From: Chloroflexia bacterium
GTDB taxonomy: Bacteria > Chloroflexota > Chloroflexia > Thermomicrobiales > CFX8
Length of the DNA stretch: 42,183 nucleotides
Assembly (NCBI GenBank): GCA_030431755.1
Contig: JAUIIK010000001.1
Location: 1-42,183 of the forward strand
Direction: 5' to 3'
The notes under the pieces were generated by a model that was not told the DNA's origin, ran no database searches, and saw nothing but the letters and a program-made list of their open reading frames with translations. This document shows, in pieces, positions 1 through 19,435 of the stretch; the first letter of the stretch is position 1; the number at the start of each line of letters is the position of its first letter. A program made the position numbers and the translations under genes.

Positions 1-193
1 TTCGCTGGATCTCCGGATGGAGAGGGAACCTACATGCCTGATAGAGAGCCTCGGATGTTCGGATATCGGTTCCGTTTACTTTAAGAGCAAATCCGGCGGC
101 CATATTTGAAAGGCCACCCCACTCTTCCTTCGTCTTCCGAAAGACGACAGAAAAGGCACGATTGTAAGTTCGTATGTTCGGATCCTTGGTCAT
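1..193 (-). CDS. NADAR-domain (YbiA-like) protein, partial
   Basis: The first 64 codons are visible, reading from an ATG at 193 down to base 1; the C-terminus lies outside the window. The start is supported by an AAGGA box seven bases upstream. The peptide has the N-terminal signature of NADAR/YbiA proteins: a conserved Phe, then EWGGLSNMAAG (about residues 24-34), then a TSEALYQACRFP block (about residues 47-58) and a following PEIQ. NADAR proteins act on NAD- or ADP-ribose-derived N-glycosides, and some members remove ADP-ribose from guanine bases. The gene lies 68 bp after the phosphoribosyltransferase-like gene on the same strand, so it is probably the distal gene of the defence operon. 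Family assignment is good; the substrate is unknown. Confidence 0.8.
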   Translation of the reverse strand, partial: MTKDPNIRTYNRAFSVVFRKTKEEWGGLSNMAAGFALKVNGTDIRTSEALYQACRFPLHPEIQR

Positions 194-261
194 AGATGAT
201 CCTTGAAATTGGACTTAGGCTAGATCTGGTGGCCTGCAGGCGATCAACGACTCAAGGTGGT

Positions 262-1296
262 TCACGAATCCTTACGCTTTAAGAGCGGCGTCCGTCCTCC
301 TCCGCTCCACCAAATCGCCATTGGGAGGTTGTTTGCCACGTTGCGATAGGAACAGAAGAAGGTTCCGAAACCAAACGACTGGAGCTTCTGCCAACCGAGT
401 GGCCGCATTGAGCCAATCGTCGTTGTGCTCATACAGTCAAAGCCTACCTCCAGCATGGCCCCTTCAACCGTATCGCGGGACGTGGCACTCGAGAAAAGTG
501 TCTCCTTCGTTGGAACTCCATCGTCACGCAACCATTTTCCATTTCGCAGCTGTCTGATCTCAGACTCTCTGTCCTCCGCCGAATGGCGATGGCCAAAGCG
601 ATCTCTGTAGTTTCGCTCACTTGGCCAAAGGCACTCATACCGGGAGACAACCGACTTGTTGTGGTCATTCTCAATGTACTTGTCTGCAATCACACTATGG
701 TAGGTAACATCTTTTCGCCGAGCCTCCCTTCTTATGAAACGTTCCGCGTACTTGACTCCGGCCGTATGCGCGGCCAGCGTGAGTACCCATAGTTCGGATC
801 CGTTAGGTGCGTGTCGTGGGATCCAAGATGGACTGTTGGAATCCCCAGTACAGAGGTCGTATCTGAAACGGTTACCCGTATAGATGCAGTCGTCGATGTA
901 CACGTACTTCATCGAATCTCGATCACCGCAAAGTTGAAGATCCATTCCGAAGTCTTCTTCAAGGATCTCGTTGAGAAGCCTAAGCAGATCGACTTGGCTT
1001 CTCCCTTTGGTTTGTATGTTCAAGAAGCGAGTCTCTGACAGGGTTTCCCACGGGTCCGGATAGTTTGCCAAGTACGATTCAAGGAGCTTGCTAAGCGCCT
1101 CCTTGGATCTAGACCTCGAATAGTAGAACTCTGGCAAAATGTGGGCTAGTTCGGTAATGATGCAGTGCCGTTCTACAGGGTCAAATCGCTTCACCCACTG
1201 TTCAACATGGTCGGCCGTTGGTTGCGGGACCTCCCCACTCCGATAGTCGTGCAGCGTCTCCGCAATCGACTTACATAGCTCTTGTTGAGTAGCCAT
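262..1296 (-). CDS. phosphoribosyltransferase-like protein of conflict-system type (PRTase-CE-like)
   Basis: A protein of about 344 residues. The most telling motif is YVYIDDCIYTGNR (about residues 131-143), which matches the phosphoribosyl-pyrophosphate loop of type I phosphoribosyltransferases: a hydrophobic strand, two acidic residues, then a Thr-Gly turn. It is preceded by a GRSQ segment (about residues 98-101) that could be a second substrate loop. A helical N-terminal region of about 85 residues precedes the fold. Such stand-alone domains are known in predicted prokaryotic conflict systems (PRTase-CE). The ATG at 1296 has AGGTG six bases upstream; an in-frame GTG at 1305 is an alternative. 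It lies 37 bp after the DUF262 gene and before the NADAR gene, so a nucleotide- or base-modifying role is inferred. Base composition is lower in GC than the helicase gene, which suggests separate acquisition. Confidence 0.68.
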   Translation of the reverse strand: MATQQELCKSIAETLHDYRSGEVPQPTADHVEQWVKRFDPVERHCIITELAHILPEFYYSRSRSKEALSKLLESYLANYPDPWETLSETRFLNIQTKGRSQVDLLRLLNEILEEDFGMDLQLCGDRDSMKYVYIDDCIYTGNRFRYDLCTGDSNSPSWIPRHAPNGSELWVLTLAAHTAGVKYAERFIRREARRKDVTYHSVIADKYIENDHNKSVVSRYECLWPSERNYRDRFGHRHSAEDRESEIRQLRNGKWLRDDGVPTKETLFSSATSRDTVEGAMLEVGFDCMSTTTIGSMRPLGWQKLQSFGFGTFFCSYRNVANNLPMAIWWSGGGRTPLLKRKDS

Positions 1297-1333
1297 GTCA
1301 GTCACCTAGCCTTCGGAAATAGGGACGCAGCCA

Positions 1334-3052
1334 TCAAGCTATTTCCTCTTCCTCGACCAGTTCGGTCGCTTCGGTGACGCCGGTGGCGTCTTTGATCAGG
1401 TTCCAGATGGCTTGCTGGCGCCAGTCGATGAACCGATGAAAATCGTTGCGCCAAAAGGGGGAGTCGAGGCCGGTCGGCAGCAGGTGGGACTGGAGTAGCC
1501 GGCGGAAGCCGTCGGGGTCGGACTCCTCGTGGGCGTCCTGGATCTCCTGCATGTAGTCTGAGGGCGCGCGGGCGCTGATGACCTGGTTGGTCTTGCGGTC
1601 GATCAATGTGCGGTTGAGGATCGAGTCGCGTAGCCGGGTTGGGACGTCGAGATAATGGTTGCGGAGATATGCCGCTGGGAAGATATGGTGGTCGTCGATG
1701 TGCTGCTCGGTCATCAGGTCGCGAGTGATGCGCGCGCCGGTGTGGAAGTCGCGCGGTCCCTGGCTCAAGAGCAGCGCCATCGAGCCGCGGTAGAGCGCCC
1801 GCTGGCGCGAGGTCGTCTCGCGCAGCATCCTCGGATCGAACTGCATCTTGGCCACGGAGTCGGGCTCCTGGCCTCCGTCGAGCCAGGCCATGATCTCCTG
1901 AACGTCTTTGACGATCTGGCTGTTCGCGCCGCTCTCGTAGCTCTGCCCAAAGACCGAGCACCAGAACCAGCGCTTGATCTTGTTGCGATGGACGGCGACT
2001 TCGGGCGACGCTTTGAGCGTGGTGCGGGCCAGCACGGCGGCTAGAGCGATTGTCATGGTGTTGTAGGGTAGCCATTTCGGGATGATGACGCCGCAGTCGT
2101 CCTGCAGCATCGTCAGGCCATCGGCCATCCCAAAGACGGCGCGATCCCACCACTCCTCTATCTGTTCCGCTTCGAGGTCGAGGACATAGCTGCGGGTGCA
2201 GGCCGGTGTCGGACGAGCGTTGAGCGACACGACCTGGAGCAGGTAGTACGGGTCGATGTCGAAATCTTCGATGATCGGATAGTCGGCTAGCGCCTTGTCC
2301 CAGAGCCGGCGCAGATTCACATTCTTTGGCCAGAAGCGAGCCGTCAATAGTTCGAAGACGCTGAGCTTCACCCCGGTTCGGTTGAGCGTCTCGAAGATCG
2401 TGCAGACAGCTTCTGCGCCGGTCTCGTCGGAGAGCGTCACTACCGGAAAGCGATAGTCATCGATCGCCCGGATCCACCGCTCTTCGACAGCGTCTAGCTG
2501 ATCTTCGAGCTTGATGCGCTCGTCGCTGTCATCGACCCGTCTAGCGACCATCCGCGACCAGCGGCTGTAGTTGCCGGCTCCGCCGCGTAGCTCGCCCAGC
2601 GGCAGGATCAGTTCCTGAGCCTGTACATCCTCGTCTTCCAGACGCTTGGCCTGCTTCGTATGGTCACGCGCGTGAAAGATGCTCTCCTCAAAATCTCCAG
2701 TGTCAAGCAGTTGCCGCAGGTTCAGATAATAGCGGTGTTCACCTACGCCGTAGAACGCTTGATAGAGCGACGTCAAGCGCTGCTGGCCATCAAGCACCAG
2801 GTAGGTGATTTTCCGGCCATCGAGCGGCGGCGCGCCCTGGAACTCGCGATTGGCGAACATATCGTGGGTGTTGCGAATCCGCAACAGGCTTCCGGCGGGG
2901 TAATTGTTGGCAATCGAGACGATCAGCTCCTGCGTCGCCTTCGGATCCCAGACGAAGTTGCGTTGGAAGTCCGGTAGCGCTGCCTCCCGCGCGTGGATCT
3001 GGCCGAGCAGCTCTTTCAGCTCGCGCGGGTTGGTATCTTCAAACAAACTCAT
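1334..3052 (-). CDS. DUF262 / DUF1524 (GmrSD-like) nuclease
   Basis: A 572-residue protein with the two-part layout of GmrSD-type restriction enzymes. The N-terminal DUF262 domain shows DFQRNFVW (about residues 28-35) and the ParB-like LDGQQRLTSLY signature (about 87-97), a motif linked to nucleotide binding or hydrolysis. The C-terminal DUF1524 part has DDHHIFP (about 453-459) followed by an ILNRTLIDRKTN segment (about 478-489), the HNH-like His and Asn pattern of the nuclease. Of two adjacent ATGs the second (3052) is preferred, because it is five bases from a GAGGAG box while the first is only two. It overlaps the end of the upstream ATPase gene by 14 bp, so translation is likely coupled. 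Predicted role: DNA-cleaving effector. GmrSD acts on modified phage DNA; whether this protein does so is unknown. Confidence 0.88.
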   Translation of the reverse strand: MSLFEDTNPRELKELLGQIHAREAALPDFQRNFVWDPKATQELIVSIANNYPAGSLLRIRNTHDMFANREFQGAPPLDGRKITYLVLDGQQRLTSLYQAFYGVGEHRYYLNLRQLLDTGDFEESIFHARDHTKQAKRLEDEDVQAQELILPLGELRGGAGNYSRWSRMVARRVDDSDERIKLEDQLDAVEERWIRAIDDYRFPVVTLSDETGAEAVCTIFETLNRTGVKLSVFELLTARFWPKNVNLRRLWDKALADYPIIEDFDIDPYYLLQVVSLNARPTPACTRSYVLDLEAEQIEEWWDRAVFGMADGLTMLQDDCGVIIPKWLPYNTMTIALAAVLARTTLKASPEVAVHRNKIKRWFWCSVFGQSYESGANSQIVKDVQEIMAWLDGGQEPDSVAKMQFDPRMLRETTSRQRALYRGSMALLLSQGPRDFHTGARITRDLMTEQHIDDHHIFPAAYLRNHYLDVPTRLRDSILNRTLIDRKTNQVISARAPSDYMQEIQDAHEESDPDGFRRLLQSHLLPTGLDSPFWRNDFHRFIDWRQQAIWNLIKDATGVTEATELVEEEEIA

Positions 3053-6000
3053 CATTGCTCCTCAACGTGTCGGCGATCCGGCTGCTGAAACGCCGGAAGC
3101 GATCGCGGCTCGAACCGGATGCGGTGTCGTCTTGTGGACTGCGAGGCCAGCCCGTATCGTCCGTGGTCGAGCTGTGCCAGCTGGCGCGGTCTCTGGCGGT
3201 GGAGCCTGCGACGGCATCGTCGTTGCTGGCATCAGAAGCTCCCGGTTCGTCGATTTCAATCTCGTCGGTCAGGTCGGCAACCCAGCCCTGAGCGTCGTCC
3301 GTCTCATGCTCGACATCCACCGACCATGGGTCGACGCCTTCGCGCAGGCGCACGCGGTAGCGCGCTGGGAAGAGATCGGCGATGATCCGTAGCTCCTCGG
3401 CCCGGTAGCTGGCGACCTGGTCGTGACCGGCAGGGAGGATGATCCAACCCGCCGTCGACTGCTCGATCAGCATGCTCCAGACGTCAGCCGCGATCTCGAA
3501 GCCCTCCTCGAGCGGCTTGTCGCCGACCCAGTAGTGACCAATGGGCTGCGAGTTGAGGCTCCGTTCGACGCCATGGAATGGCGCGCGCTGGATCGTGAAG
3601 GTCCGGCCATCTGGGTGGCGAAAGGCGTCCCGATCGTCGCCGCCCAGTACTGGCGCGAAGCCGTGATCCAGAATGTGCGCGACGAGCAGTCGTCGCCAGC
3701 GCGGATTCTGACGCCCTCTTCCGGCTGTTGCCACCTCGCGATACTCGGTTGTGCTGTCATCTTCGTTGTCCAGCTCAGCCTCGTCGTCTGGGCCCACGAC
3801 CGTGAAAGTGACGTTCGGTCGTGAGTGTTCCTCGTTGTTGCGTCCTCCGTGTCGCTCAGGAGTGTCGATTTCGTCGATAGTATCTGGATCGATGTCGAAA
3901 CGCGAAACGAAATACTCGCGAATCCAGCCTTGTGAGCGGCCAACACAGGCGCTAATCGCCTCCTGGGCGAAACGGCCGACGAACCGGGCTCGCAACGCTC
4001 GAATCAGGTCGTCGTGATACTGCGCGCTTGTTCCAGCGACATAGAGCCCCGCGTCATTCCAGATGGCGCGCTGGACTCTTGCTTCGCCGGCGGGTTCATC
4101 GTCGATATACGGCGTCACTTCGAGCCGCTGTAGCTCATACCACGCTGCGCCGATCAGGCGTGCCGCGATGTCGGCATCGGGGGGTTCGGCGACGCTCTCG
4201 GCGGCTGCGCCCTCCGCCTCATCTCCAGCGAGCCGCTGCTGCGCAAGGATAGCCAGCCCGCGACCGAGCGGTTCGAGCCACTCCGGCTGGTCGTCTGGAC
4301 GGGGAGCGCCGGTACCTTCTAACCGCGACTCCAGAACCTCGCCCAGCGGCGGCATTGAGGACATCAAGCCTGCGATATCGAAGTCATCGTGCAACATCGA
4401 GCAGTCTGCGACGGCGCGCCGAATGCGCGAGAAGAGCGCGTTGGCCGTCCCGCGCTCCGCAATCCACCAGGAGAGATCATCGCGGCTACTCCAGACGCCG
4501 TCAGCGCTGAGCCAGGCGTTTGCGCCGCGCCAGATCCGCTCCGCATACGTCCGGAGCAGGCTGACGATGAGACCGCGCGTTTCCGGCCGCGGCCGTGCGC
4601 CCGTTTCGTGCTCGGTCAACCAGAGGAGTAGCTGCTCGGGATCGGGCTGTCTGGCAACGCCGATGCGATCCCAGAGGGTTAGCCCCAGGTAGTGAATATC
4701 TGGATGGATTGTCATCACGCCCGGCAGATCCTCGGTTGTCTCTTGGACCACCGTATCGGTCGTCGCCCAGCGCCCGTCGCCCGTGATGATCAATGGCTCG
4801 GTGTCGAACGCCGACCGCAGCTCGGCCAGCTGCTCGCTATCTTGCCGGGCTGCAATCCGATCGACTGTCTCGTAAAGCCCGGCCAGCTGATGGATTGGCG
4901 CTTGCTCGACACCCGAGAGGGCGCGTAGTCGCTGTAGTGGCACGTCGGTCGTTGTCGGGTCGGAGCGGACGCCCAGCAGGTCGAGCAGCACGACGTTGCC
5001 GGGCACGTCGAGCTCCGGATGCACGAACCGGTCGATCTTCTGGAGGAACGCGGTTTGAGACGTTACCCGCAGCAGCTCGCTGGGGAGACTCGGCTTGCTA
5101 TACTCGTCCGGAAGGCAGGGGAGCAAGCGCAGCCGCTGGATCCAGGCCGGCAGCAATGGCCCGTGTTCGACCGCTCGCTTGTGCTTCGTACCCCATTGCG
5201 AGATTGACGCCTCGTCCAGGCGTTTGAGGTCGCTCAAGCTCAGCTCTTCGCTCAAAGCCCGTACGAGGTCGACCCAGACACCGTCGTGCGATTCGACGCG
5301 CTGCTCCCAGTGTTCCCACAATTCAGCGGAAAAATCGAAGTCGTCAACCTGGAAGCTAGTGGACTTCAGAGGTGCGTTGAGGCTATTGCCACCCCCACGC
5401 TCCTCGCAGAAACGGCGTATGCGGAGCCAGCCATGAATGCGCCGGCTGGTGCGATGAGGATGAGGAAAACGTTGGACCGGGGTCGCGTCGCTTAGCCAGA
5501 GGAGCCAGTGGCGCCGCTCGCTGAACTCGAGCGATGAGTTGTAGTCGTCGCTGATCCGGTGCGCCTGTATCCAGGCGTCCGGAAGGAGCGCTTCGGTCGC
5601 GCCATCGGAGCCGGCGATCAGGCCACGGTCGGCTGCGCGCCACTGTCCGTCGAGGCACTTGAATTTGAACGTTGGATCGACCCGGATGTTCGACCGCGCG
5701 GCAATCTGCGCGAGGCGCACACCATCTGCGCCGGGCTGTTCCCGGCCGAAAATCTGTTGCGCCGTGCGGCGCACGAGCTCGCCGGCCGAGATCGGGTGGT
5801 CGAGACCGAGGTTTGAGAGCATCAACCGCACGACACCCGTCATCGCCTTGTCGTCCGCCTGCGTCATCGCGCTAATCCAAGAGCTATCAAGCGCGACAAG
5901 GTAGCGCATGAAGAACTCGAGTTCATCCGGTCGCAGCTGCGGCTGATACTCGCCTATGACGGCGACACTCTCCGCGGACCACAGCATGTCCTGTCCGTGC

Positions 6001-7478
6001 GCCGGGATCACGGGGAGGCGTGTGACCGCCTGCAGAGGATCGTTTCGATAGTACCGGCGTTGCCGCACCGCTGGCTCGAGGAATGCCCAGAGCTTGAGCA
6101 ATTGCTTGCTCGAAGACGGCCTGGGAACAAGCTCTCGTTGTGCTAGTCGGAGAAAGACAGCGTCGCGGTCGATCTCGATCAGCTGATCCCACGCCTTCAA
6201 CCGTCGCCGATGGGCCGTCGATACGTCCCCCGCCAGCAGGTGACGCTCGTGAGATCCGAGTACCTCCAGTGTCGTGCTCGGTTCCCATACTTCGGAGATG
6301 CTCGGCGCGACGGCTAGTGTTTCGCGCTCCTGGACGAGTTCACCAGAGCTGGAGAGGAGAATCGGATTGTCAGCCAGGGTCCGCCAAAACGCGTCCATGA
6401 CCGTCTGGCAGACTTCGTCTTCCAGGTCGCCGTCAGAATCGGGGCGCTGGGACAGCAGTTGATATGCCTCGGCACGGTCGGAGAGTGGCATAGTCTCCGT
6501 GCGGAGCCAGGTGCGCATCGATTCGGCGGCGAGCGCGCCTGCTCGCTGCAGCAACCAGCGGTTCGTCGGCGACTGCGAGGGGCTCTTCGGGCGTGTTCGA
6601 TCCGGTGTCTGAATGAATGGCGCATTGACCGAAAAGGCGAGATTTGGATGGAACTCCATCGGCAGTACGACGTACACGCTGGGCGTCTGCGGATCGCCAA
6701 TGATCAGCTCCACTTGACAGCTGCGGATGCCGAGTTCCGCAATGTCCCCGACACCACGTTCCTGTCGGATCTCTTCGAGTGCTTCGCGTGGGAAGTCTTC
6801 TTCGCCCGACGCGATATGGATCAGCTCGTGTTGGGACCGTCCCTCGATGCGAACCTCTCGCGAGCCAGCTACAGGTCCAGGACCGAGTTCACGTGCTAGG
6901 ATCTTCTCGTCCTCGATGATCAGCTGACGGAGGTTTCGGAAGAAGAGGAGTGGTGTCGGATTCTCGGCCCAGCGCTCCTGCTCGATCTGCGCACGCCTTG
7001 CCTTGATGTCGTCTTCCAAGCGAATTTGGATCGTTGTGTGTTGAGTTGGCGGGAATCCTTCAATCCAACCTGGGATCGTAAATCGTTCCTTTGCAAACGT
7101 CGCCGCGAGGCTCGGCGTGATGAGTGCTACGCGTGAGCCAAAGCTGAAGGTCGATTTGAATCCGATCCCGCGGAATCCGATCGTGAGCAGGCGGCTCTTG
7201 GCGGACACGCCGAAGCTGCACAGCGATTTGAACTGCTCCGCCGTGAAGTCGTCTCCATTATGTTCAAAGATGAAATGGTCCTGATGACACCGCATCCTGG
7301 CCCAGGTCGCGCCAGCGTCGTCCGCGTTTTGTAGTAGCTCGGAGATTACGTGCTGCGGGCTTTGGACCTGGCTGAAGAGATGGTGCACGGCTCTGCCCCA
7401 GGACGAACTCTCTAGCTTGTCCCACTCACTAGCCGCATAGCTTTGTACTGCGTCGAAGTATGTTGGTTTGCTTCGCAT
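3039..7478 (-). CDS. sacsin-like GHKL ATPase, very large
   Basis: A 1479-residue protein. Its N-terminus carries an HSP90/sacsin-type ATPase: ELLQNADDAGA (about residues 47-57, the N box with the Mg-binding Asn), HNGDDF (about 73-78) and IGFRGIGFKS (about 100-109, the Gly-rich ATP lid). The following 1300 residues are leucine- and tryptophan-rich and match nothing I can name; an acidic stretch near residue 1240 precedes a distinct basic C-terminal domain (NPRWRRL onward). The ATG at 7478 is chosen because it lies one base after the helicase stop and has AAAGG upstream; an in-frame start exists 42 bp earlier inside the helicase gene. Sacsin-like ATPases of this size occur in defence islands, usually with helicases or nucleases. 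Inferred role: ATP-driven sensor or scaffold between the helicase and the nuclease. Confidence 0.82.
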   Translation of the reverse strand: MRSKPTYFDAVQSYAASEWDKLESSSWGRAVHHLFSQVQSPQHVISELLQNADDAGATWARMRCHQDHFIFEHNGDDFTAEQFKSLCSFGVSAKSRLLTIGFRGIGFKSTFSFGSRVALITPSLAATFAKERFTIPGWIEGFPPTQHTTIQIRLEDDIKARRAQIEQERWAENPTPLLFFRNLRQLIIEDEKILARELGPGPVAGSREVRIEGRSQHELIHIASGEEDFPREALEEIRQERGVGDIAELGIRSCQVELIIGDPQTPSVYVVLPMEFHPNLAFSVNAPFIQTPDRTRPKSPSQSPTNRWLLQRAGALAAESMRTWLRTETMPLSDRAEAYQLLSQRPDSDGDLEDEVCQTVMDAFWRTLADNPILLSSSGELVQERETLAVAPSISEVWEPSTTLEVLGSHERHLLAGDVSTAHRRRLKAWDQLIEIDRDAVFLRLAQRELVPRPSSSKQLLKLWAFLEPAVRQRRYYRNDPLQAVTRLPVIPAHGQDMLWSAESVAVIGEYQPQLRPDELEFFMRYLVALDSSWISAMTQADDKAMTGVVRLMLSNLGLDHPISAGELVRRTAQQIFGREQPGADGVRLAQIAARSNIRVDPTFKFKCLDGQWRAADRGLIAGSDGATEALLPDAWIQAHRISDDYNSSLEFSERRHWLLWLSDATPVQRFPHPHRTSRRIHGWLRIRRFCEERGGGNSLNAPLKSTSFQVDDFDFSAELWEHWEQRVESHDGVWVDLVRALSEELSLSDLKRLDEASISQWGTKHKRAVEHGPLLPAWIQRLRLLPCLPDEYSKPSLPSELLRVTSQTAFLQKIDRFVHPELDVPGNVVLLDLLGVRSDPTTTDVPLQRLRALSGVEQAPIHQLAGLYETVDRIAARQDSEQLAELRSAFDTEPLIITGDGRWATTDTVVQETTEDLPGVMTIHPDIHYLGLTLWDRIGVARQPDPEQLLLWLTEHETGARPRPETRGLIVSLLRTYAERIWRGANAWLSADGVWSSRDDLSWWIAERGTANALFSRIRRAVADCSMLHDDFDIAGLMSSMPPLGEVLESRLEGTGAPRPDDQPEWLEPLGRGLAILAQQRLAGDEAEGAAAESVAEPPDADIAARLIGAAWYELQRLEVTPYIDDEPAGEARVQRAIWNDAGLYVAGTSAQYHDDLIRALRARFVGRFAQEAISACVGRSQGWIREYFVSRFDIDPDTIDEIDTPERHGGRNNEEHSRPNVTFTVVGPDDEAELDNEDDSTTEYREVATAGRGRQNPRWRRLLVAHILDHGFAPVLGGDDRDAFRHPDGRTFTIQRAPFHGVERSLNSQPIGHYWVGDKPLEEGFEIAADVWSMLIEQSTAGWIILPAGHDQVASYRAEELRIIADLFPARYRVRLREGVDPWSVDVEHETDDAQGWVADLTDEIEIDEPGASDASNDDAVAGSTARDRASWHSSTTDDTGWPRSPQDDTASGSSRDRFRRFSSRIADTLRSNDEFV

Positions 7479-7479
7479 G

Positions 7480-10400
7480 CTAGACCTTTGCAGTGGGGAC
7501 GCTATCGACGAGCCCATCAATCGAATAGACGACGGCGACGGCTCCGAAGTCGGGTTCGGTGTCGAAGGGTTGGGTAACGTAGATCGGCGCTTCCGTTCGG
7601 TCGCCGTCCACGATCACGATCGCGAGGATGAAGTCGTCCGGCTTGTTCAGGCCAGCCAGTATCTCGTTCTTCGTCACGGTGATCGTTTCCGAGCCAGCTA
7701 CTCGCCCTTTGACCTCGATAAAGCGCGTTGGTCCGCCAGCTGGATCGCGCGACTCTATATCCCAGCCGAACTTCTGATCGCCGACGTCGGTGGGCACGAA
7801 CCCAAACTCTCGCTCGCGCTCCATCACAGCCTCGATCGCCGTCCGCTCGACGCGCTTGCGAGCAGCCGGGTCGATCGTGATCACCTCCGGTGGCGGGCTG
7901 ACCTCAAGCAAGCGGAGCAGGCCGATCGGCACGACGAGCGCGCCTCCGGCGATGTTCGGGCGCAGCGGCGCCAACTGCCGCTCCTCTTCCAGTTCCTGCA
8001 AGCGACTCCGAAGTCGTTGTCGGAGCTCCTCGGCTCGGGTCCTCGCCAGCGTCGAGTTCAGCCGTGGTTTTTTGCCGGCGTCCTCCTGCATCCGCAGCTG
8101 GATCGCCTGGTTGTCCCAGAACATGATCTCCTTTGTGAGCCGATCCTTCACCGCCTCCGAGGTCCTATCGACGAGGTCCTCTCGTCTGGTCCGTACCTCT
8201 CGGAGGTGTTGGGGGACGATGTGCTGGACAGCGTGGTTCATGATCTGTGTCTCGAGGTCGGTGGTTAGCCAGTCTGCCTCGATCAGATCTTCAAGCGCCT
8301 GACGTTGCTCGTCCGTGATTGGCTCGTAGTCCAGATAGGGGGCGTACCCTGCCAGCCGAAGCTCGCTATTTGCGTCGATTTCGATGAACTGGAGTTGGCG
8401 CGAGACGTGACGCCGGTTTCCATCGCCATCAGTCCGGGAATCCTGAATTGAGTGTTCGAGGTAATAGAGGGCCCGAATATCTTCACCGTCGTCGTCGGGG
8501 TCGACCAGGATCGTCCCCTGTTTCAAGAGGCTCCGATAGCGTTCCAGAATGACATGGATCGTCGTGTCAAGCAGCGGATGTCCAGGCGCAACGAACTCGG
8601 CCATTGGCTGACCCGGGACATTGAGCTGATCTTTATTAAAGGACACCCGCTCGTAGCGTCGCAGGAGTGGCTCTCGCACGCCAATCATGCGGTCGCGTTC
8701 CCGCAAAATGCCGGGCACGCGCACAATCTCGTACCGTCGAGGCTCGCGTTCGTAGATGCGGCCGCCGAGGTGTCGAAAGGCTTCGATGAAGAACGACTCG
8801 ATGTAGTGTGGTTGTAGACGTCGCGCTTCAGCCCGCTCCATATCCTCCCGTACGCGTTGCACGATGCTGGAGTTCATGATGTTACTGACCAATGAACGCG
8901 TTTCCATCAACTCGCGAAGGTGCTGGTGATCGAGCGCACCCTCGACCACATGATTGAGGCGTTCCCGTACGTCTTCTTGATCTCCATACCGGACGGCTTT
9001 GACTAGAAGCTGGCGCAACGATTCATTTTCGAAGACGACTTGGCCGAGAACGTCGAAGACCTGTCCTCCGAGAGACTCTCGCTCTTGTTCCAGCTTGCGA
9101 AAGAGTGTGTCGAAAACGGCCCCCTCGCGGGTTTCTGTCGCAACGAGATTCCAGAGATGACAGACCTCAGTCTGGCCGATGCGATGGATGCGGCCGAACC
9201 GTTGCTCCAACCGGTTCGGGTTCCATGGCAGGTCGTAATTGACCATCAGGTGGGCGCGCTGAAGATTGATACCTTCTCCAGCGGCGTCAGTGGCGACGAG
9301 AATGAGTGTGTCTCGATCCTGTGTGAAGAGTTCCTGCGCCGTCCTGCGATCTTCACGCCCCATGCTGCCGTGGATCGTAACGACCGCTTCGTCGCGTCCC
9401 AGAAGCGTCCGCAGGCGTTCGATGAGCATGTAGAGCGTGTCTTTGTGCTCGGTGAAGATCACGAGCTTCAGACGCCTGCCATCCGGGCCGAACATATCGT
9501 CGTTGTCCTGCAACAGGCTTGAGAGCTGCTCCCATTTGCGGTCAGTTCCACTCGAACGCACGGTGTTGGCAAGCTGCTCGAGTCGTTGCAATGTGGCGAT
9601 TTCCGACTCGAGCTCCGAGATCGTTCGAGAGGCCGTTGCGAGATCAACGACCAGTTCTTCCTGCTCGTCGGCTTCGTCGGCTGGCAGATCGTCCATCTCG
9701 TCGATCATTTCGTCCGACATCCCTGGCAGGTCTTGGAGCCATGAAAGCCGCTGCTCGCCGCCGCGACGTTGAAGCTTCTCGTCGCGGACGCGTGCTTCGA
9801 GCCTTTCTTTGCGTCGACGTAGCGACTGGTAGATCGCTTCGGGAGATGACGCGAGCCGCCGCTGCAAGATCATAAGCGCGAATCCGACGGTTCCTCGACG
9901 CCCTCCTTCCTCCAGCGCATCGGCCCGGTTGAATTCCTCTTTGACGTAGTCGGTGACCTCCCGATAGAGACGGGCCTCTGCATCGGAGAGCGTGTACGGA
10001 ACCGTGTAGGCGCGCCGCTCCGGAAAGAGTGGCCGTCCATCGAACTTCAGGAGTTGCTCCTTTAATAGTCGTCGCATGAGATCGTCCGTGTCCACCGAGT
10101 GGACTCCATCTCGAAACCGGCCCTCAAAGCGATCGGCATCGAGCAGCGCCATAAAGAGCTGAAAGTCCTCTTCACGCCCGTTGTGTGGTGTAGCAGTCAT
10201 GAGGAGAAAGTGTCGGGTGAGACCGCCGATGAGCTGACCAAGCCGATAGCGCTTCGTATACGTGACCTCGCCGCCGAAGAAGCTTGCCGACATCTTGTGG
10301 GCTTCGTCGACGATAACAAGATCCCAGTCCGTTTGCTGGAGTCGAGCCTGCAGATCGTCATTTCGCGCCACCTGGTCCAACCGACAAATCACCAGGTCGT

Positions 10401-10995
10401 TCTCGATGAACCAGTTGCCGGTTCTGGCGGCCTCTGCCTTATCGCGTGTGAGGATGTCGAATGGCAACTGAAACTTGTAGTGCAGCTCGTCTTGCCACTG
10501 CTCCACGAGACTTCCGGGACAGATAACTAGGCACCGGCGGAGGTCCCCACGCATCCACAGTTCCTTGATAAGCAGCCCGGCCATGATTGTCTTGCCTGCA
10601 CCAGGGTCGTCAGCGAGTAGAAATCTCAGCGGCTGTCGTGTCAGCATTTCTTCATACACAGCAGTAATTTGGTGGGGAAGCGGATCGATGAGCGAGCTGT
10701 GAACGGCTAACAGGGGATCGAAGAGATAGGCGAGGTTGATCCGCTGAGCTTCTGACGCCAGTCGAAACAAATGGCCGTCGGTGTCGAAGCGCCATGCTCG
10801 TCCTTGCACATCAATCTTGAGTCGGGACTCGTCATCACGAAAAAGGATCGTTTCGGCCGGCTGGCCGTTTGGAGGGCGGTAGGTCAGAGTGAGAGCATCA
10901 GATCCATGCCAGTCAACGTCAATGATCGTGACGACCTCGTTAGGTAGAACCCCTCGGAGGTTTGTCCCGCGCTTCAGTTTCTCTAGTGATGCCAC
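7480..10995 (-). CDS. SNF2-family helicase with C-terminal DUF3883 (DrmD-like)
   Basis: A protein of about 1171 residues. Superfamily 2 helicase motifs are in order: Walker A DDPGAGKT (about residues 129-136), DEAH (about 230-233), LLMTATPHN (about 264-272), and motif VI QRFGRIHRIGQ (about 598-608). A charged helical insertion separates the two lobes. The C-terminus has a DUF3883 (NOV_C) domain with FGWDIES and a later FIEVKGR, resembling a restriction-endonuclease-like core. This is the architecture of DISARM DrmD and related defence helicases, which translocate on DNA. The start is uncertain: the GTG at 10995 has GGAG six bases upstream, while a TTG at 11031 would add 12 residues but has no visible ribosome site. 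First gene of the leftward operon; the next starts one base after its stop. Confidence 0.88.
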   Translation of the reverse strand: MASLEKLKRGTNLRGVLPNEVVTIIDVDWHGSDALTLTYRPPNGQPAETILFRDDESRLKIDVQGRAWRFDTDGHLFRLASEAQRINLAYLFDPLLAVHSSLIDPLPHQITAVYEEMLTRQPLRFLLADDPGAGKTIMAGLLIKELWMRGDLRRCLVICPGSLVEQWQDELHYKFQLPFDILTRDKAEAARTGNWFIENDLVICRLDQVARNDDLQARLQQTDWDLVIVDEAHKMSASFFGGEVTYTKRYRLGQLIGGLTRHFLLMTATPHNGREEDFQLFMALLDADRFEGRFRDGVHSVDTDDLMRRLLKEQLLKFDGRPLFPERRAYTVPYTLSDAEARLYREVTDYVKEEFNRADALEEGGRRGTVGFALMILQRRLASSPEAIYQSLRRRKERLEARVRDEKLQRRGGEQRLSWLQDLPGMSDEMIDEMDDLPADEADEQEELVVDLATASRTISELESEIATLQRLEQLANTVRSSGTDRKWEQLSSLLQDNDDMFGPDGRRLKLVIFTEHKDTLYMLIERLRTLLGRDEAVVTIHGSMGREDRRTAQELFTQDRDTLILVATDAAGEGINLQRAHLMVNYDLPWNPNRLEQRFGRIHRIGQTEVCHLWNLVATETREGAVFDTLFRKLEQERESLGGQVFDVLGQVVFENESLRQLLVKAVRYGDQEDVRERLNHVVEGALDHQHLRELMETRSLVSNIMNSSIVQRVREDMERAEARRLQPHYIESFFIEAFRHLGGRIYEREPRRYEIVRVPGILRERDRMIGVREPLLRRYERVSFNKDQLNVPGQPMAEFVAPGHPLLDTTIHVILERYRSLLKQGTILVDPDDDGEDIRALYYLEHSIQDSRTDGDGNRRHVSRQLQFIEIDANSELRLAGYAPYLDYEPITDEQRQALEDLIEADWLTTDLETQIMNHAVQHIVPQHLREVRTRREDLVDRTSEAVKDRLTKEIMFWDNQAIQLRMQEDAGKKPRLNSTLARTRAEELRQRLRSRLQELEEERQLAPLRPNIAGGALVVPIGLLRLLEVSPPPEVITIDPAARKRVERTAIEAVMEREREFGFVPTDVGDQKFGWDIESRDPAGGPTRFIEVKGRVAGSETITVTKNEILAGLNKPDDFILAIVIVDGDRTEAPIYVTQPFDTEPDFGAVAVVYSIDGLVDSVPTAKV

Positions 10996-11445
10996 GCATT
11001 TCTCCAGACGGTGATGTTCCAAGACCTGCAAGGTCTGCTTGTAGTATTCATCGTCGCATACTGGAAATGCCTACTGCAAATGTTGCCCCAGTTCACCCGC
11101 CACTGGTGCTCACGGAGGCAGCCAGCGATCCGCCCTTGCTGTATTGGTGGGGAGTGTTGATTGACCGACGTGAATAGATCGGCAACAGGAATCGAGCCAG
11201 GTGTAGTGATCGAAAGTGTGGTTTCCAACGCAAGAAAGCACCGTGGCTTCTGCCATGCCCGGATGACGAAAGAACAACCCAACCCGAAGCAATAGCTCCT
11301 GTTCAAACCACGATCATCTATGAGCCTGACGGTGCGAACGTTCGCAAGTATCTGGTGGTCTTGGAGCCTATGATTGGATGGTTAAGAAAACGAGCCGACG
11401 TAATGCTGACACACACGCCGGCCAACAACGAAGGGGTGATCTTCG
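10996..11445. other. intergenic region between divergent helicase and recombinase genes
   Basis: About 450 bases separate the divergent starts of the helicase operon and the recombinase gene. Short open frames here show no recognisable protein. I found no promoter with both boxes close to consensus on either strand. The one notable structure is a perfect 14-bp palindrome at 11333-11346. This stretch should hold the promoters of both transcription units. Confidence 0.6.
11333..11346. repeat. perfect 14-bp palindrome
   Basis: The sequence TGCGAACGTTCGCA is perfectly self-complementary and lies 100 bp upstream of the recombinase start. It could be a binding site for a dimeric regulator or a recombinase. 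It contains GAAC/GTTC half sites but without the four-base spacer of Gram-positive LexA boxes. Confidence 0.5.
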
Positions 11446-12822
11446 ATGCTCTCCAAGTTTAGCCACAATGGCGGCCACGGTGCGGTTGGTTATGTCCGTG
11501 TTAGTTCAGACGAGCAGTTCGATGGGTACAGTTTCGACGCTCAGCAACATGCTATTCGCCACTATCGTGAAGCGCAAAGCTGGACGCTCGTCCAAGAATA
11601 TCGGGACGAAGCACTCTCGGCGCGGACCGACGATCTCAGCCGGCACCCTGCCTTCGCGGCAATGCTGGACGATGCAGAGTCGGGTCTGTTCGACGCGATC
11701 GTTGTCCATAAGCTTGATCGATTCGCACGCAATCTTCGAATTACCTTGGAAGCGCTCGACCGGCTGGAATCGGCCGGCGTAGGATTCGTGTCTACTTCCG
11801 AGAACATGGACTTCGCGTCCGCCATCGGAAAGGTGATGCCCCCCAACTTGGGGGCCCTCGCGCAGTATTGCTCTAATAATCTCAACCACGAAACGAAGAA
11901 CGGCAAAACGGAACGTAAGTGGCAAGGCTACTATAACTGTTTGCTCCCATTTGGCGTTGCGAAGTGTGACAGCGGGATACCTGTGCCGTGCCCCATGAAT
12001 CATACGGGCCTCGTGCTGGCGATTGAGACAGCGGCATCTGGCGTCAGCGATCGTGAGGTGGCGGAGACTCTCAACTCAGCAGGCTTTCGCACAACCGGAA
12101 ACCGCGGTGCCAACCCTTTCTCTAAGGACACGGTGTGCCATATCCTGCGGAATCGATTCTATGTTGGTGACTTGCCTGACGGTGCAGGTGGATGGATGTC
12201 GGACAAGCATGAGCCGCTTTTCGATCCTCTCTTGTTCAGTGAGGACAAACGCGTTAGAGCACAACGATCACTGAGAGGACATCGGGTTCGAAGATCAGCG
12301 ACGAAATACTCGATTTCAGGTCTGGCGATCTGTGGCAACTGTAAATCGCCGATGCACGTCTACAATGCGGGGCGTGAGAACCCTCGTCTTGTCTGCTACG
12401 GGCGGACGCAGAGCAACGGCTGCACCGCGATGTCGGTGTTCCTATCGATCATCGAGGACACGATCGAGGAGTATCTCGACTCGTTTCATATCCCCGACGA
12501 CTACGCCGAGCAGATCGTCGTAATGTACGATGCATCGGAGGTGAACAAGGCTGACACCGACAAGTTGCGCGAGGCTGCAGAGAAGCGGCTGGTACGCCTC
12601 CAGGACCTGTACCTGATGGGTGACATCGACAAGATGCAGTACAAGGCAGAGCGCGAAGATCTCACAGCACAGATCGCGAACTTGAGTGACAGCCGCGATC
12701 AGTCAGGCGTCATAGCCCGTGCGGCAGCTTTTTTGCGCGATCTTCCGGCCGCGTGGCGGGCCGCGAATGACGCCCAACGCCACAAGCTCAGTCAGCTGTT
12801 ATTCAGTGAGGTGAGGATTTAG
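11446..12822 (+). CDS. large serine recombinase (site-specific integrase)
   Basis: A 458-residue protein with the three parts of large serine recombinases. The N-terminal resolvase domain has GYVRVSSDEQ (about residues 15-24) with the nucleophilic Ser20, and HKLDRFARN (about 88-96) with the catalytic arginines. A recombinase domain follows (about 160-280). A zinc-ribbon has CGNC (about residue 296) paired with a second Cys pair around residues 316-327, then a coiled-coil region (about 365-420). The ATG start has AAGGGG upstream. It points toward the tRNA-Asp gene, whose 3' end lies 94 bp beyond, and is divergent from the defence operon. It probably integrated or excises the island. A perfect 15-nt inverted repeat (CCCCCAA, one base, TTGGGGG) lies inside the gene at 11840-11854. 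No frameshift is seen, so the enzyme looks intact. Confidence 0.9.
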   Translation: MLSKFSHNGGHGAVGYVRVSSDEQFDGYSFDAQQHAIRHYREAQSWTLVQEYRDEALSARTDDLSRHPAFAAMLDDAESGLFDAIVVHKLDRFARNLRITLEALDRLESAGVGFVSTSENMDFASAIGKVMPPNLGALAQYCSNNLNHETKNGKTERKWQGYYNCLLPFGVAKCDSGIPVPCPMNHTGLVLAIETAASGVSDREVAETLNSAGFRTTGNRGANPFSKDTVCHILRNRFYVGDLPDGAGGWMSDKHEPLFDPLLFSEDKRVRAQRSLRGHRVRRSATKYSISGLAICGNCKSPMHVYNAGRENPRLVCYGRTQSNGCTAMSVFLSIIEDTIEEYLDSFHIPDDYAEQIVVMYDASEVNKADTDKLREAAEKRLVRLQDLYLMGDIDKMQYKAEREDLTAQIANLSDSRDQSGVIARAAAFLRDLPAAWRAANDAQRHKLSQLLFSEVRI

Positions 12823-12845
12823 GACCAGCAGTTAACTGGCCTGAT

Positions 12846-12883
12846 AGTCCAGCCCGACTTTGCGCCGTTCTTCTGGCTGGACT
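12846..12883. repeat. 9-bp inverted repeat between recombinase and tRNA-Asp
   Basis: AGTCCAGCC at 12846-12854 pairs perfectly with GGCTGGACT at 12875-12883 across a 20-base loop. It sits between the recombinase stop and the tRNA 3' end. It could be a weak terminator for either transcript or part of an attachment region. There is no T-run on either side, so a Rho-independent terminator is not well supported. Confidence 0.45.
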
Positions 12884-12915
12884 TCGAGTCTCGTCAACCG
12901 GAGTCTTTGGCACTG

Positions 12916-12989
12916 CGGAAGCGACGGGATTCGAACCCGCGATCTCCACCTTGACAGGGTGGCGTGTTAGGCCGCTACACTACGCCTCC
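12916..12989 (-). tRNA. tRNA-Asp (anticodon GTC)
   Basis: A complete 74-base cloverleaf can be folded by eye. The 7-bp acceptor stem is GGAGGCG with CGCTTCC (one G-U pair). The D stem is GTGT/ACAC, the anticodon stem CCACC/GGTGG, and the seven-base loop CTGTCAA gives anticodon GTC. The T arm carries the TTCGAAT loop. CCA is not encoded. The 3' end faces the recombinase and the defence island, as at tRNA-associated integration sites. Confidence 0.97.
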
Positions 12990-13046: not shown

Positions 13047-14630
13047 TCAAGCCGCGCTGGCGGCCGCACGGTGCCGTAGGCGGCGGATGATCTCTCGCTG
13101 CTCCGGCGTGACGATTCCAAGCAGCAGTCCACCTATCACGAACACCACAGCGCCGGCCAAGGCCGCGACGAGTGGGCGGTCGAGGAACGGCAACGTAGCG
13201 GCCGTCGCGAGCAGGCCGGCTGCTGTCGGGCGCAGGATCGCGGACAGCGACGCGCGGTCGTGGATGCGTACCGCCCGGCCACGAGACAGGATCACGAAGG
13301 CGGCGAAGATGACGACTTCGGTGGCGACGGTCAATCCTGCCGCGGCGAATGAGCCATATAGCGGTATGAGCAAGAAGTTGCCGGCGATGTTGAACGCCAC
13401 CGCCGCGCCAAACGCCGGCACGATGTCGCGCTGCCGGCCCTCGGCGATCAGGACGTACTGGAAGACGCCGTTGAGGAACGATAGCGGCGCGAAGAAGACC
13501 AGGATGCGCAAGAGTTCGGCTGAGTCGGGTAGGAACTCGTCGCCGGCCAGGATCCGGATCGCGGGCTGTGCCAACGCCACCGTCGCGACGACGATGCCCC
13601 AGGCGATCGTGACCAGCAGGTAGGCGGTGAGCCGGTTGGCACGCGCCAGGCTGGCCGGAGCGTGCGCCCGCCGGGACATCAGCGGGAACACCGCCAGCGT
13701 CGCGTAGGCGGGGATGATCGTGAGCAAGTTGATCGGCTTGAACGCCGCATCGTAGAGCCCGACCGCTTCCGACCCGCGAAAGGCTTCGACGATGAAGATG
13801 TCGAAACGGAAGAAGAGCGACAGCAACAATGCATTGACCAGCAGCGGGGCACTTTCGCGCGCGTACAGCCGCGCCTGCTCGATGTCGAGTGAGAACCGCA
13901 GTTCCGGGAGCTCGAGCCTGCGGTAGACGACCGCGAAGGCTGCGACCGAGATGAGCGAGCCAATAGTGGCCGCTAGCGCGATACCGACGATGCCGAGACT
14001 CGTGGCCGCCAGCAGGATCGCGACCGGTGCGCGCATAAGGTTCACGCCAACGTTGATGCCGGCGGCAATGTCCATCCGCTCGACGCCGTTGAGGGCCGAA
14101 TTGACCGCCTCGCTAACGCTCCCGGGGATGATCGTGAGCAGCAGGATTGCGACGGCCAGGAGCACGTCGGACGAGACATTCCCGAAGGCGACGCGGGCCG
14201 AGAGATAGATGGCAACCGGCACGACCGCGACAGCGAGGGCGAGCATACGGAAGAGCGCGGTGCCCCCCGTCAGCGTACCCGCATGTTCCCGGTCGCGGGC
14301 GATCTCGCGGGTGGCGTAGAGCCCAAGGCCGAAGTCTGACAGCGTCTTCACATAAAACCAGATGATGACGGCTAGCGCGTAGCGTCCGTTGCCGGCCGGT
14401 CCGAGCAGCCGCAAGACAGCCAGCGCGACGATGAGGTCGACGCCCCGCACGAAGAACTGTGACACGATCGGTAACGAGCTATTTCGGAGGATGAGCCAGG
14501 CCGCGTCGCTCTCCTCGCTGTCGCCCGGCCGTGCGCGGCGCATGACATACACGAGGCAGAGCAGCCCGGCGATCCCAAGCGCGCCGAGGAGAAGGAACCC
14601 CGGAGTCGAAAGGATGCGCTCACTGAGCAT
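13047..14630 (-). CDS. polysaccharide flippase (Wzx/MATE-like, MOP superfamily)
   Basis: A 527-residue integral membrane protein with about 14 hydrophobic segments. It has the layout of Wzx-type translocases: an N-terminal SLPIVSQFFVRGVDL block after an extra leading membrane helix (residues about 10-28), charged residues at the ends of helices (RREL-like loops), and a C-terminal pair of helices followed by a basic tail. Such proteins move lipid-linked glycan repeat units across the cytoplasmic membrane. Last gene of the nine-gene operon; its ATG overlaps the end of the small membrane-protein gene by 11 bp. The extra N-terminal helix before the flippase core is not typical. Function is inferred from fold-level similarity and context. 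Confidence 0.85.
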   Translation of the reverse strand: MLSERILSTPGFLLLGALGIAGLLCLVYVMRRARPGDSEESDAAWLILRNSSLPIVSQFFVRGVDLIVALAVLRLLGPAGNGRYALAVIIWFYVKTLSDFGLGLYATREIARDREHAGTLTGGTALFRMLALAVAVVPVAIYLSARVAFGNVSSDVLLAVAILLLTIIPGSVSEAVNSALNGVERMDIAAGINVGVNLMRAPVAILLAATSLGIVGIALAATIGSLISVAAFAVVYRRLELPELRFSLDIEQARLYARESAPLLVNALLLSLFFRFDIFIVEAFRGSEAVGLYDAAFKPINLLTIIPAYATLAVFPLMSRRAHAPASLARANRLTAYLLVTIAWGIVVATVALAQPAIRILAGDEFLPDSAELLRILVFFAPLSFLNGVFQYVLIAEGRQRDIVPAFGAAVAFNIAGNFLLIPLYGSFAAAGLTVATEVVIFAAFVILSRGRAVRIHDRASLSAILRPTAAGLLATAATLPFLDRPLVAALAGAVVFVIGGLLLGIVTPEQREIIRRLRHRAAASAA

Positions 14631-14796
14631 TCTGGATCTGGATCAGTATCAGGACGGCGACAGTGACGACCATGGCGCAGATTGGGAGGATAAAGAGGGC
14701 CCCGATGATCAAAATGCCGAGACGCGGATGACGGCTGAACAGCCCCTTGCGCGGTTCCTCTGCCAGTGACTCGACTTTCTCATGGGAGTCGGTCAT
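14620..14796 (-). CDS. 58-residue single-pass membrane miniprotein
   Basis: A small protein: a charged N-terminus (residues 1-22, including EKVESLAEEPRKG), a short RHPRLG turn and one long hydrophobic helix (about residues 29-54), ending in QNAQ. The start is fixed by context: its ATG shares the four bases ATGA with the stop of the glycosyltransferase gene, and its own end overlaps the flippase start by 11 bp. That double overlap argues for a real, translationally coupled gene. No family is recognised. It may be a small partner of the neighbouring flippase or glycosyltransferase. Longer in-frame extensions upstream would lie inside the glycosyltransferase gene and are not supported. Confidence 0.65.
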   Translation of the reverse strand: MTDSHEKVESLAEEPRKGLFSRHPRLGILIIGALFILPICAMVVTVAVLILIQIQNAQ

Positions 14797-15908
14797 ATGC
14801 CTGCACCGCCGACACGTTCGTAGACACGGAGCGTGCGCCTGGCAGTCTCTGTCCAGCTGAAGGCGGCGGCGCGTGCGATGCCCTGTGCGCTGAGATCGGT
14901 GCGGAGCGTTGCGTCGTCGAGCACACGACATATCCCATATGTGATCGAATCTACATCATCTCCATCAACCATCAGCGCGGACTGCCCGGCAACCTCACGG
15001 TGGGCCGCTATATCGCTGGCTACGACTGGGACGCCACGGCTCAGCGCTTCGAGCACCGGCAGTCCAAAACCCTCATAGTGGGAGGCGGCGACGAAGACGC
15101 TCGCCGCGCGGTAGGCCAGCTCAAGCTGCGCGTCCCCGGCATTCTCGTGCCAGGTGAGCCAACCCGCTGCCTGAGATTGCCGCAAATCCGCGACGATTTC
15201 GTCGTCCAGCCAACCCCGGCGACCGACCACCACAAGCCGCGCGTCAGGATGTCGTGCCCGCACGCCATCCATCGCCGCAAGCACCGTGCGGTGGTTCTTA
15301 CGCGGTTCGATGGTGCCGACCATCAAGATGATTGGTTCCACGCCGCCCTCATGCCGCTCCAGGTGACCTGCAAGCTTCACGCCGTTGGGCACGGCGACGA
15401 TGCGCTCTCTGGCGGCTGGATAGGCCGCCGCTACTTCGGCAGCCACCGACGCCGACACGGTGATGATCGCGTCGGCTCGAGCGATTGCGCGCGGGACGGC
15501 TTGCTGCAAGTAGCTGGCAAGTTTGGGATGGCAGTAGTTGGGATGGTGGATGAAGGAGAGATCGTGGATCGTGACGACTGTCGGGCTCGTGGTTGGTGGG
15601 AGTGTATAGTCCAGGCCGTGAAAGAGATCGTGGCCGCCGGTCCAGCGGTCGACTGCTATGGGTAGGCGCAGCCGTTGCCAGGCAGCGGTCATGACGCGCT
15701 CGCGCGCTGGCAGCCGCCGGACCTCTCGCCAGGCGCCCGGTGGCAGTGTGGAGAGAAGCTCCTCCGCTGCGCTCGCATCCGCAGCTACGCTCAGGATGAA
15801 CTGATGGTCCAGCGTCTCCTGGACGAGCGCGACAAGTAGCTCACGCGCATAGCGTCCGACGCCTCCCGACTGGACTGCTGCTGGCGTCGTGTCGATGGCG
15901 ATGCGCAC
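14793..15908 (-). CDS. GT4-family glycosyltransferase
   Basis: A 371-residue GT-B-fold enzyme. The N-terminal acceptor half has GGVGRYARELL (about residues 16-26), and the C-terminal half has a NDP-sugar-binding segment with GTIEPRKNH and the family motif EGFGLPVLEAL (about 277-287). These are marks of retaining GT4 glycosyltransferases such as mannosyltransferases. It probably adds a sugar to the growing lipid-linked glycan on the cytoplasmic side. The start lies 10 bp after the UPF0104 gene stop, and the stop overlaps the next gene by four bases. The sugar donor cannot be read from sequence. Confidence 0.9.
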   Translation of the reverse strand: MRIAIDTTPAAVQSGGVGRYARELLVALVQETLDHQFILSVAADASAAEELLSTLPPGAWREVRRLPARERVMTAAWQRLRLPIAVDRWTGGHDLFHGLDYTLPPTTSPTVVTIHDLSFIHHPNYCHPKLASYLQQAVPRAIARADAIITVSASVAAEVAAAYPAARERIVAVPNGVKLAGHLERHEGGVEPIILMVGTIEPRKNHRTVLAAMDGVRARHPDARLVVVGRRGWLDDEIVADLRQSQAAGWLTWHENAGDAQLELAYRAASVFVAASHYEGFGLPVLEALSRGVPVVASDIAAHREVAGQSALMVDGDDVDSITYGICRVLDDATLRTDLSAQGIARAAAFSWTETARRTLRVYERVGGAGI

Positions 15909-15918
15909 AAGTCAACTC

Positions 15919-16938: not shown

Positions 16939-16942
16939 GCGC

Positions 16943-19413: not shown

Positions 19414-19435
19414 GGAGGAGACTCCCTCTCTGCAT

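Follow-up and report, generated by a model that had tools for sequence, protein, structure and literature searches.

The two genes at the left end of the analysed DNA encode a phosphoribosyltransferase (PRTase)-like protein and a NADAR protein, a pair already known as the anti-phage system DS-32. In this chloroflexial genome, DS-32 very probably forms an extra module inside an Hma operon that lies on a genomic island with a serine recombinase and a tRNA-Asp, with the Hma operon itself, we infer, continuing across a contig end. The analysed stretch, called the window, has a length of 42,183 bases and is the beginning of contig C61 (113,056 bp). A reading made from the sequence alone had placed a PRTase-like gene and a NADAR gene next to each other on one strand, and this is borne out by matches to PF24390, NF053875 and NF053876.

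Gene layout of the window

Leftward on the minus strand, the operon runs from HmaA through a HATPase/sacsin-type gene, a DUF262 gene and the PRTase to the NADAR gene and the contig end (Table 1). Because C61 ends at window base 1, the truncation of the NADAR gene is an assembly effect. The HATPase/sacsin-type and DUF262/GmrSD_N genes (1334-7520) are two further additions between HmaA and the PRTase. At 51.6%, the G+C content of the PRTase-NADAR stretch is below that of the remaining operon genes (59-62%) and of the remainder of the window (64%), in keeping with a later insertion. The serine recombinase beside tRNA-Asp (11446-12989) suggests a genomic island boundary, beyond which biosynthesis genes of polysaccharide/O-antigen type are found (13047-23833; flippase, glycosyltransferase, Wzy-like ligase, epimerase).

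Table 1. Features of the window and of the contig carrying the second half of the Hma operon.
Feature	Position	Strand	Evidence
NADAR gene, truncated at the contig end to its first 64 codons	2..193	-	NF053876 DS32_2_antiphage positions 1-57
PRTase-CE / DS-32 phosphoribosyltransferase-like protein, 347 aa	262..1305	-	PF24390, NF053875, AF2 model, fold matches
DUF262 / GmrSD N-terminal-type protein, same operon	1334..3055	-	PF03235 E 2.8e-29
Large sacsin/HATPase-type protein (TmtA-like), 1493 aa	3039..7520	-	
HmaA helicase with NO VEIN C-terminal domain, upstream operon gene	7480..11031	-	PADLOC HmaA 1709 bits
Serine recombinase, island edge	11446..12822	+	PF00239/PF07508/PF13408
tRNA-Asp adjoining serine recombinase, possible integration site	12915..12989	-	ARAGORN
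Second Hma half (truncated HmaB, then HmaC)	L120, G000:C168 50000-59738		

The PRTase-like protein

The PRTase-like protein carries a PRPP-type loop, YVYIDDCIYTGNR. It is recognized by the Pfam model PRTase-CE (PF24390; E 5.8e-39, 134.9 bits, cut-off 27) and by NCBIfam NF053875 DS32_1_antiphage (266.8 bits), for which the equivalog cut-off of 250 is exceeded. The AlphaFold2 model (pLDDT 86.5, pTM 0.87) was compared with the PDB using Foldseek, and the best fold matches are uracil, orotate and hypoxanthine-guanine PRTases (UPRT/OPRT/HGPRT) as well as PyrR, with probabilities up to 0.99, a best E of 1.7e-3 (none below 0.001) and low TM scores. Matches to CD38 in the same search were judged spurious (rmsd 18). 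A sequence search of the PDB with the PRTase profile gave no significant match, with PyrR being the best hit. Going by the model, the protein is probably a strongly remodelled type I PRTase.

The sequence-only reading could have failed on a PRTase fold without PRPP-binding residues, and these residues were found: D138, D139, [ST]143 and G144 are invariant in 30/30 relatives and are arranged in the AlphaFold2 model as strand, loop and helix, like a PRPP loop. Q98, S103, Q104 and a C-terminal R-N-x-x-N-N-x-P...W...R block are invariant as well. The last T/S of the TGxT signature is absent from the family and mostly replaced by Arg. The use of PRPP by this protein is uncertain because the family is very divergent and this last residue is gone. 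In the family tree, the window PRTase groups with those of loci L004 and L061 (support 100/95), a placement on long branches that should be treated with care.

The NADAR protein

The 64-aa fragment of the NADAR protein is too short for the Pfam NADAR model. Its match to NF053876 DS32_2_antiphage covers 57 of 181 model positions (88.8 bits, E 2.3e-25), and a gene cut in this way cannot reach the cut-off of 240. The fragment shares 48-63% identity with NADARs encoded after homologous PRTases at other loci, and its ATG is preceded by AAGGA, which resembles a ribosome-binding site. A Pfam NADAR search of the window's own genome did not find the remainder of the cut gene anywhere in the bin.

NADARs hydrolyse N-glycosidic bonds (PMC11543638), and the residues of the PRTase-linked members were compared with the catalytic and ligand positions studied in that work. 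E47, W89, E126, D131 and W134 are kept wherever present, and the active-site Lys of known NADARs is replaced by Arg54 in all 33 of the PRTase-linked NADARs. The equivalent exchange in a known NADAR, K95R, retained activity in vitro and gave no rescue from DarT1 (PMC11543638). The nearest solved structure is that of YbiA (2b3w, E 3e-12).

The PRTase-linked NADARs bear a C-terminal extension that mostly ends in a sliding-clamp-like peptide and is absent from 30 control NADARs. The published β-clamp-binding consensus is QLxLF, usually at the C-terminus (PMC4549789), and the motif is also given in the form QL[S/D]LF (PMC3716654). Among 48 non-redundant standalone NADARs, Q-x-x-[LMIF]-[FLW] is present within the last 14 residues of 21, compared with 1.55 expected by shuffling (maximum 7 of 2000); the sequences are related, so this figure is not a strict probability. 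Eleven further tails of this set end in QSLSLF or QTM[DE]LF, and the L004 NADAR ends in QLSLDFI. The peptide is retained, within the linker, by 5/7 long or fused forms, and the motif is found in 0/30 control NADARs. Its flanking residues vary widely while the peptide persists. About a third of the PRTase-linked tails are without the motif, and the tail of the window copy is lost with its cut C-terminus. Judging from the peptide alone, these NADAR tails may bind DnaN.

Conservation of the PRTase-NADAR pairing

When the PRTase alone is used as the query, a NADAR gene is found directly downstream in 28/28 genome, 34/34 viral-contig and 3/3 plasmid loci. The genome loci come from several phyla and the plasmid loci from Methylobacterium, Vibrio and Klebsiella, and in nearly all standalone loci the intergenic gap lies between about -26 and +32 bp. 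Conversely, no PRTase was detected near ordinary NADARs at 30 control loci of the window's own phylum (1.5 kb flanks). The pairing is thus close to obligate, which supports the view that both proteins form one functional unit. Partnership with a NADAR marks a single branch of the family, since other PRTase-CE branches (L003, L005 and L006) lack one and are fused to or located beside different genes, NTPases among them. In L003, PRTase-CE is fused to an AAA-type protein, and in L006 it adjoins an ATPase gene.

A scan of genome contigs with the single PRTase sequence detected no relatives, whereas an alignment-based scan did. A tblastn search of phage records with the PRTase gave no match, and a class-wide search among the window's relatives recovered only one partial second case. 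Most copies of the pair are standalone, carried by prophages, plasmids or islands, and no tested restriction-modification (RM) or Hma gene lies within 6 kb of them.

In Escherichia coli, the pair is located between the P and nin genes of lambdoid prophages. For the allele used as the query, the PRTase half matches 44/5426 and the NADAR half 62/5426 complete genomes, a difference due mainly to a second allele so diverged that its PRTase escapes the search used. In one prophage (L124 1437-2021), an MT-A70 methyltransferase pseudogene directly precedes the pair. In strains ETEC1732 and ETEC1734, the PRTase is interrupted and the NADAR intact, with ISKpn26 seen in ETEC1732. One further genome retains a PRTase fragment and has lost the NADAR after an IS1 event, and no intact PRTase without a NADAR was seen in E. 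coli with this search. At the Enterobacter mori locus (L050, 5989-9656), two PRTases occur in tandem; the NADAR of the upstream one is a remnant, and a second, intact pair follows directly. At a further locus, L004, an intact NADAR adjoins a PRTase whose frame is broken, which may be a sequencing error. This is the pattern of loss that a toxin with its antidote would predict, drawn from few and related events.

Association with Hma and type I restriction-modification operons

In six loci (L053, L055, L058, L059, L078 and L087), the NADAR reading frame continues into that of a type I specificity subunit (HsdS). HsdM and HsdR are present in the operon in 5/6 of these loci, and the corresponding PRTases form one clade. 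L058 and L059 resemble the window in having a DUF262 gene before the PRTase. Additionally, locus L061 shows the order HmaA-like helicase, PRTase, NADAR fused to an HmaB-type methylase, and HmaC. Based on this gene order, HmaB and HmaC were predicted to lie beyond the end of C61.

The only DUF499 match in the genome is located on contig C168. This contig ends inside HmaB (1061 bits), which lacks just the first ~59 model positions, and HmaC (1013 bits) is the next gene on the same strand. The NADAR C-terminus and the HmaB N-terminus are both missing from the whole bin, as expected of one shared unbinned gap. A search of the genome for DUF1156 gave no match, which is explained by the HmaB N-terminus falling into the same gap. 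No sequence overlap was detected between the C61 start and the C168 end (longest shared word 8). Together, there is strong reason to infer that C61 and C168 join and complete the Hma operon around the pair. A left-hand gene of a different operon would have spoken against the sequence-only reading; the genes placed beyond the contig end, HmaB and HmaC, do not split the pair.

Comparison with known systems

NCBIfam 20.0 contains two equivalog models, NF053875 (DS32_1_antiphage) and NF053876 (DS32_2_antiphage), and recent RefSeq records name the E. coli pair as a phosphoribosyltransferase-like anti-phage protein and a NADAR family anti-phage protein. In the DefensePredictor article, DS numbers denote the 42 systems whose activity against phages was confirmed in E. 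coli; a PRTase appears in its figure legends and NADAR domains come up in the text, and DS-32 is not named in the main text (PMC13092281). Judging from the naming, the DS32 models trace to this screen, and the anti-phage assays appear to have been of E. coli DS-32 only. A published mechanism for DS-32 was not found in the open-licence literature searched. Both protein families recur in the window in the order known from DS-32, with the PRTase above its curated cut-off and the NADAR represented by its N-terminal part; in contrast to the standalone E. coli copies of the lambdoid P-nin region, its pair very probably lies in an Hma operon.

The Hma system consists of the helicase HmaA, the methylase HmaB and the ATPase HmaC (PMC8565338), and all three components are strongly matched (1709, 1061 and 1013 bits), HmaA in the window and HmaB and HmaC on C168. 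The operon differs from known Hma in the HATPase, DUF262, PRTase and NADAR genes added after HmaA, and in L061 in the fusion of the NADAR to HmaB. DarT1-NADAR (DarTG1) likewise encodes a nucleotide-handling enzyme together with a NADAR. However, the partner in the window is a PRTase-CE and no ADP-ribosyltransferase, and the PRTase-linked NADARs have Glu126 instead of Asp, Arg54 instead of Lys and an additional C-terminal tail. An assignment to DarTG1 was rejected, as the upstream protein matches only PRTase-CE/DS32_1 and no DarT. PRTase-like effectors are also found in type III retrons and DprA-PRTase systems (PMC12548924, PMC9122126), and the window PRTase gives a weak match to PADLOC PRTase_III-A (E 9.5e-6). 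Unlike these systems, the operon is without a reverse transcriptase or DprA and the partner is a NADAR; a type III retron was rejected, with no reverse transcriptase among the proteins of 2-12822. Finally, E. coli YbiA, an N-glycosidase of riboflavin intermediates, belongs to the same NADAR family, while the PRTase-linked NADARs differ from it in the exchange of the active-site Lys for Arg, the C-terminal extension with the clamp-type peptide and the PRTase partner.

Proposed mechanism and alternative explanations

The sequence-only reading had proposed that the two proteins perform opposed activities, one making and the other removing an N-glycosidic link. This idea is plausible from the sequences: the pair behaves as one unit, the PRPP loop and the NADAR catalytic residues are kept, and the loss pattern points the same way. 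The formation of an N-glycosidic bond by the PRTase, the toxicity of the product and its reversal by the NADAR are proposals. In the mechanism that we tentatively favour, and to which we give a little less than even weight, the PRTase would ribosylate DNA bases and a DNA-tethered NADAR would serve as the antidote. The PRTase, triggered by phage or acting at a low level, would take PRPP (or a related ribosyl donor, e.g. NAD) and place a ribosyl-type group on an exposed nucleobase amine in DNA, most likely of guanine, so that replication would be blocked. The NADAR would hydrolyse the glycosidic link made by the PRTase. The clamp-type peptide, or the fusion to HsdS or HmaB, would hold the NADAR on host DNA. 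Host DNA would thereby be cleaned by the tethered NADAR, while phage DNA, copied by other machinery, would stay modified. Points that weigh against this mechanism are the divergence of the PRTase, the Arg54 exchange with the failed K95R rescue, the tails that carry no clamp-type motif and the small number of independent loss events in E. coli. DNA is placed as the NADAR's workplace because of the clamp-type tails and the HsdS/HmaB fusions; these tags on the partner gene in relatives suggest that the NADAR works on DNA. The wider proposal that DS-32 is a reversible nucleobase-ribosylation defence, with a NADAR eraser on the host sliding clamp or on HsdS/HmaB and self told from non-self by the handling machinery instead of by sequence, is speculative and rather unlikely.

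The same two enzymes could also act on small molecules, with the PRTase using up PRPP/NAD or making a toxic or signalling nucleotide, the NADAR degrading the product without phage, and DNA being no target. In favour of this, free bases are the substrates of type I PRTases, and the N-glycosidic bonds cleaved by YbiA are those of riboflavin intermediates (PMC11543638). The PRTase-linked NADARs also give scores with TIGR02464, the riboflavin N-glycosidase model, in some cases above its cut-off. The clamp-type tails and the HsdS and HmaB fusions point to DNA instead, and we regard the small-molecule explanation as unlikely, with some weight of its own. If DNA is the workplace, the roles might be exchanged: the NADAR would be the attacker, a clamp- or HsdS-guided N-glycosidase stripping sugar-modified or hypermodified phage bases, and the PRTase would prime, mark or regulate. 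The tethering of NADARs to DNA-modification machinery in several lineages and their action on DNA bases (PMC11543638) would agree with such a role. However, NADARs have an established antidote role in DarT1 and YarT operons (PMC11543638, PMC11125620), and the NADAR is kept where the PRTase is broken while the reverse was not seen, which makes an attacking NADAR improbable.

The pair is flanked by HmaA and HmaB in some operons and by HsdM and HsdS in others. Together with the in-frame fusions, this location raises the question of whether the two proteins produce or trim a base modification that Hma or type I restriction would recognize, as a modification arm added to RM. Against such a self mark, most copies stand alone, without tested RM or Hma genes nearby, and the E. 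coli pair is alone among lambdoid prophage genes; we consider it quite improbable. A coincidental neighbourhood at the defence island edge represented by the window is refuted by conservation, as all 62 of the genome and viral loci, which span several phyla, keep the gene order, and its probability is close to nil.

Significance

The DS-32 identity and the Hma, type I RM and clamp contexts of the pair were absent from the sequence-only reading. In the open-licence literature searched, the embedding in Hma, the NADAR::HsdS and NADAR::HmaB fusions, the clamp-type tail and the invariant Lys-to-Arg exchange were not found. With its catalytic residues, tails and fusions, DS-32 yields testable claims about the base that is modified, the NADAR as an antidote and clamp tethering as a means of distinguishing self from non-self. 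The acquisition of DS-32 would be a new way for type I RM and Hma operons to gain extra modules. In addition, it could hint at the substrate class of the phosphoribosyltransferase-like effectors that recur in retrons and DprA systems.
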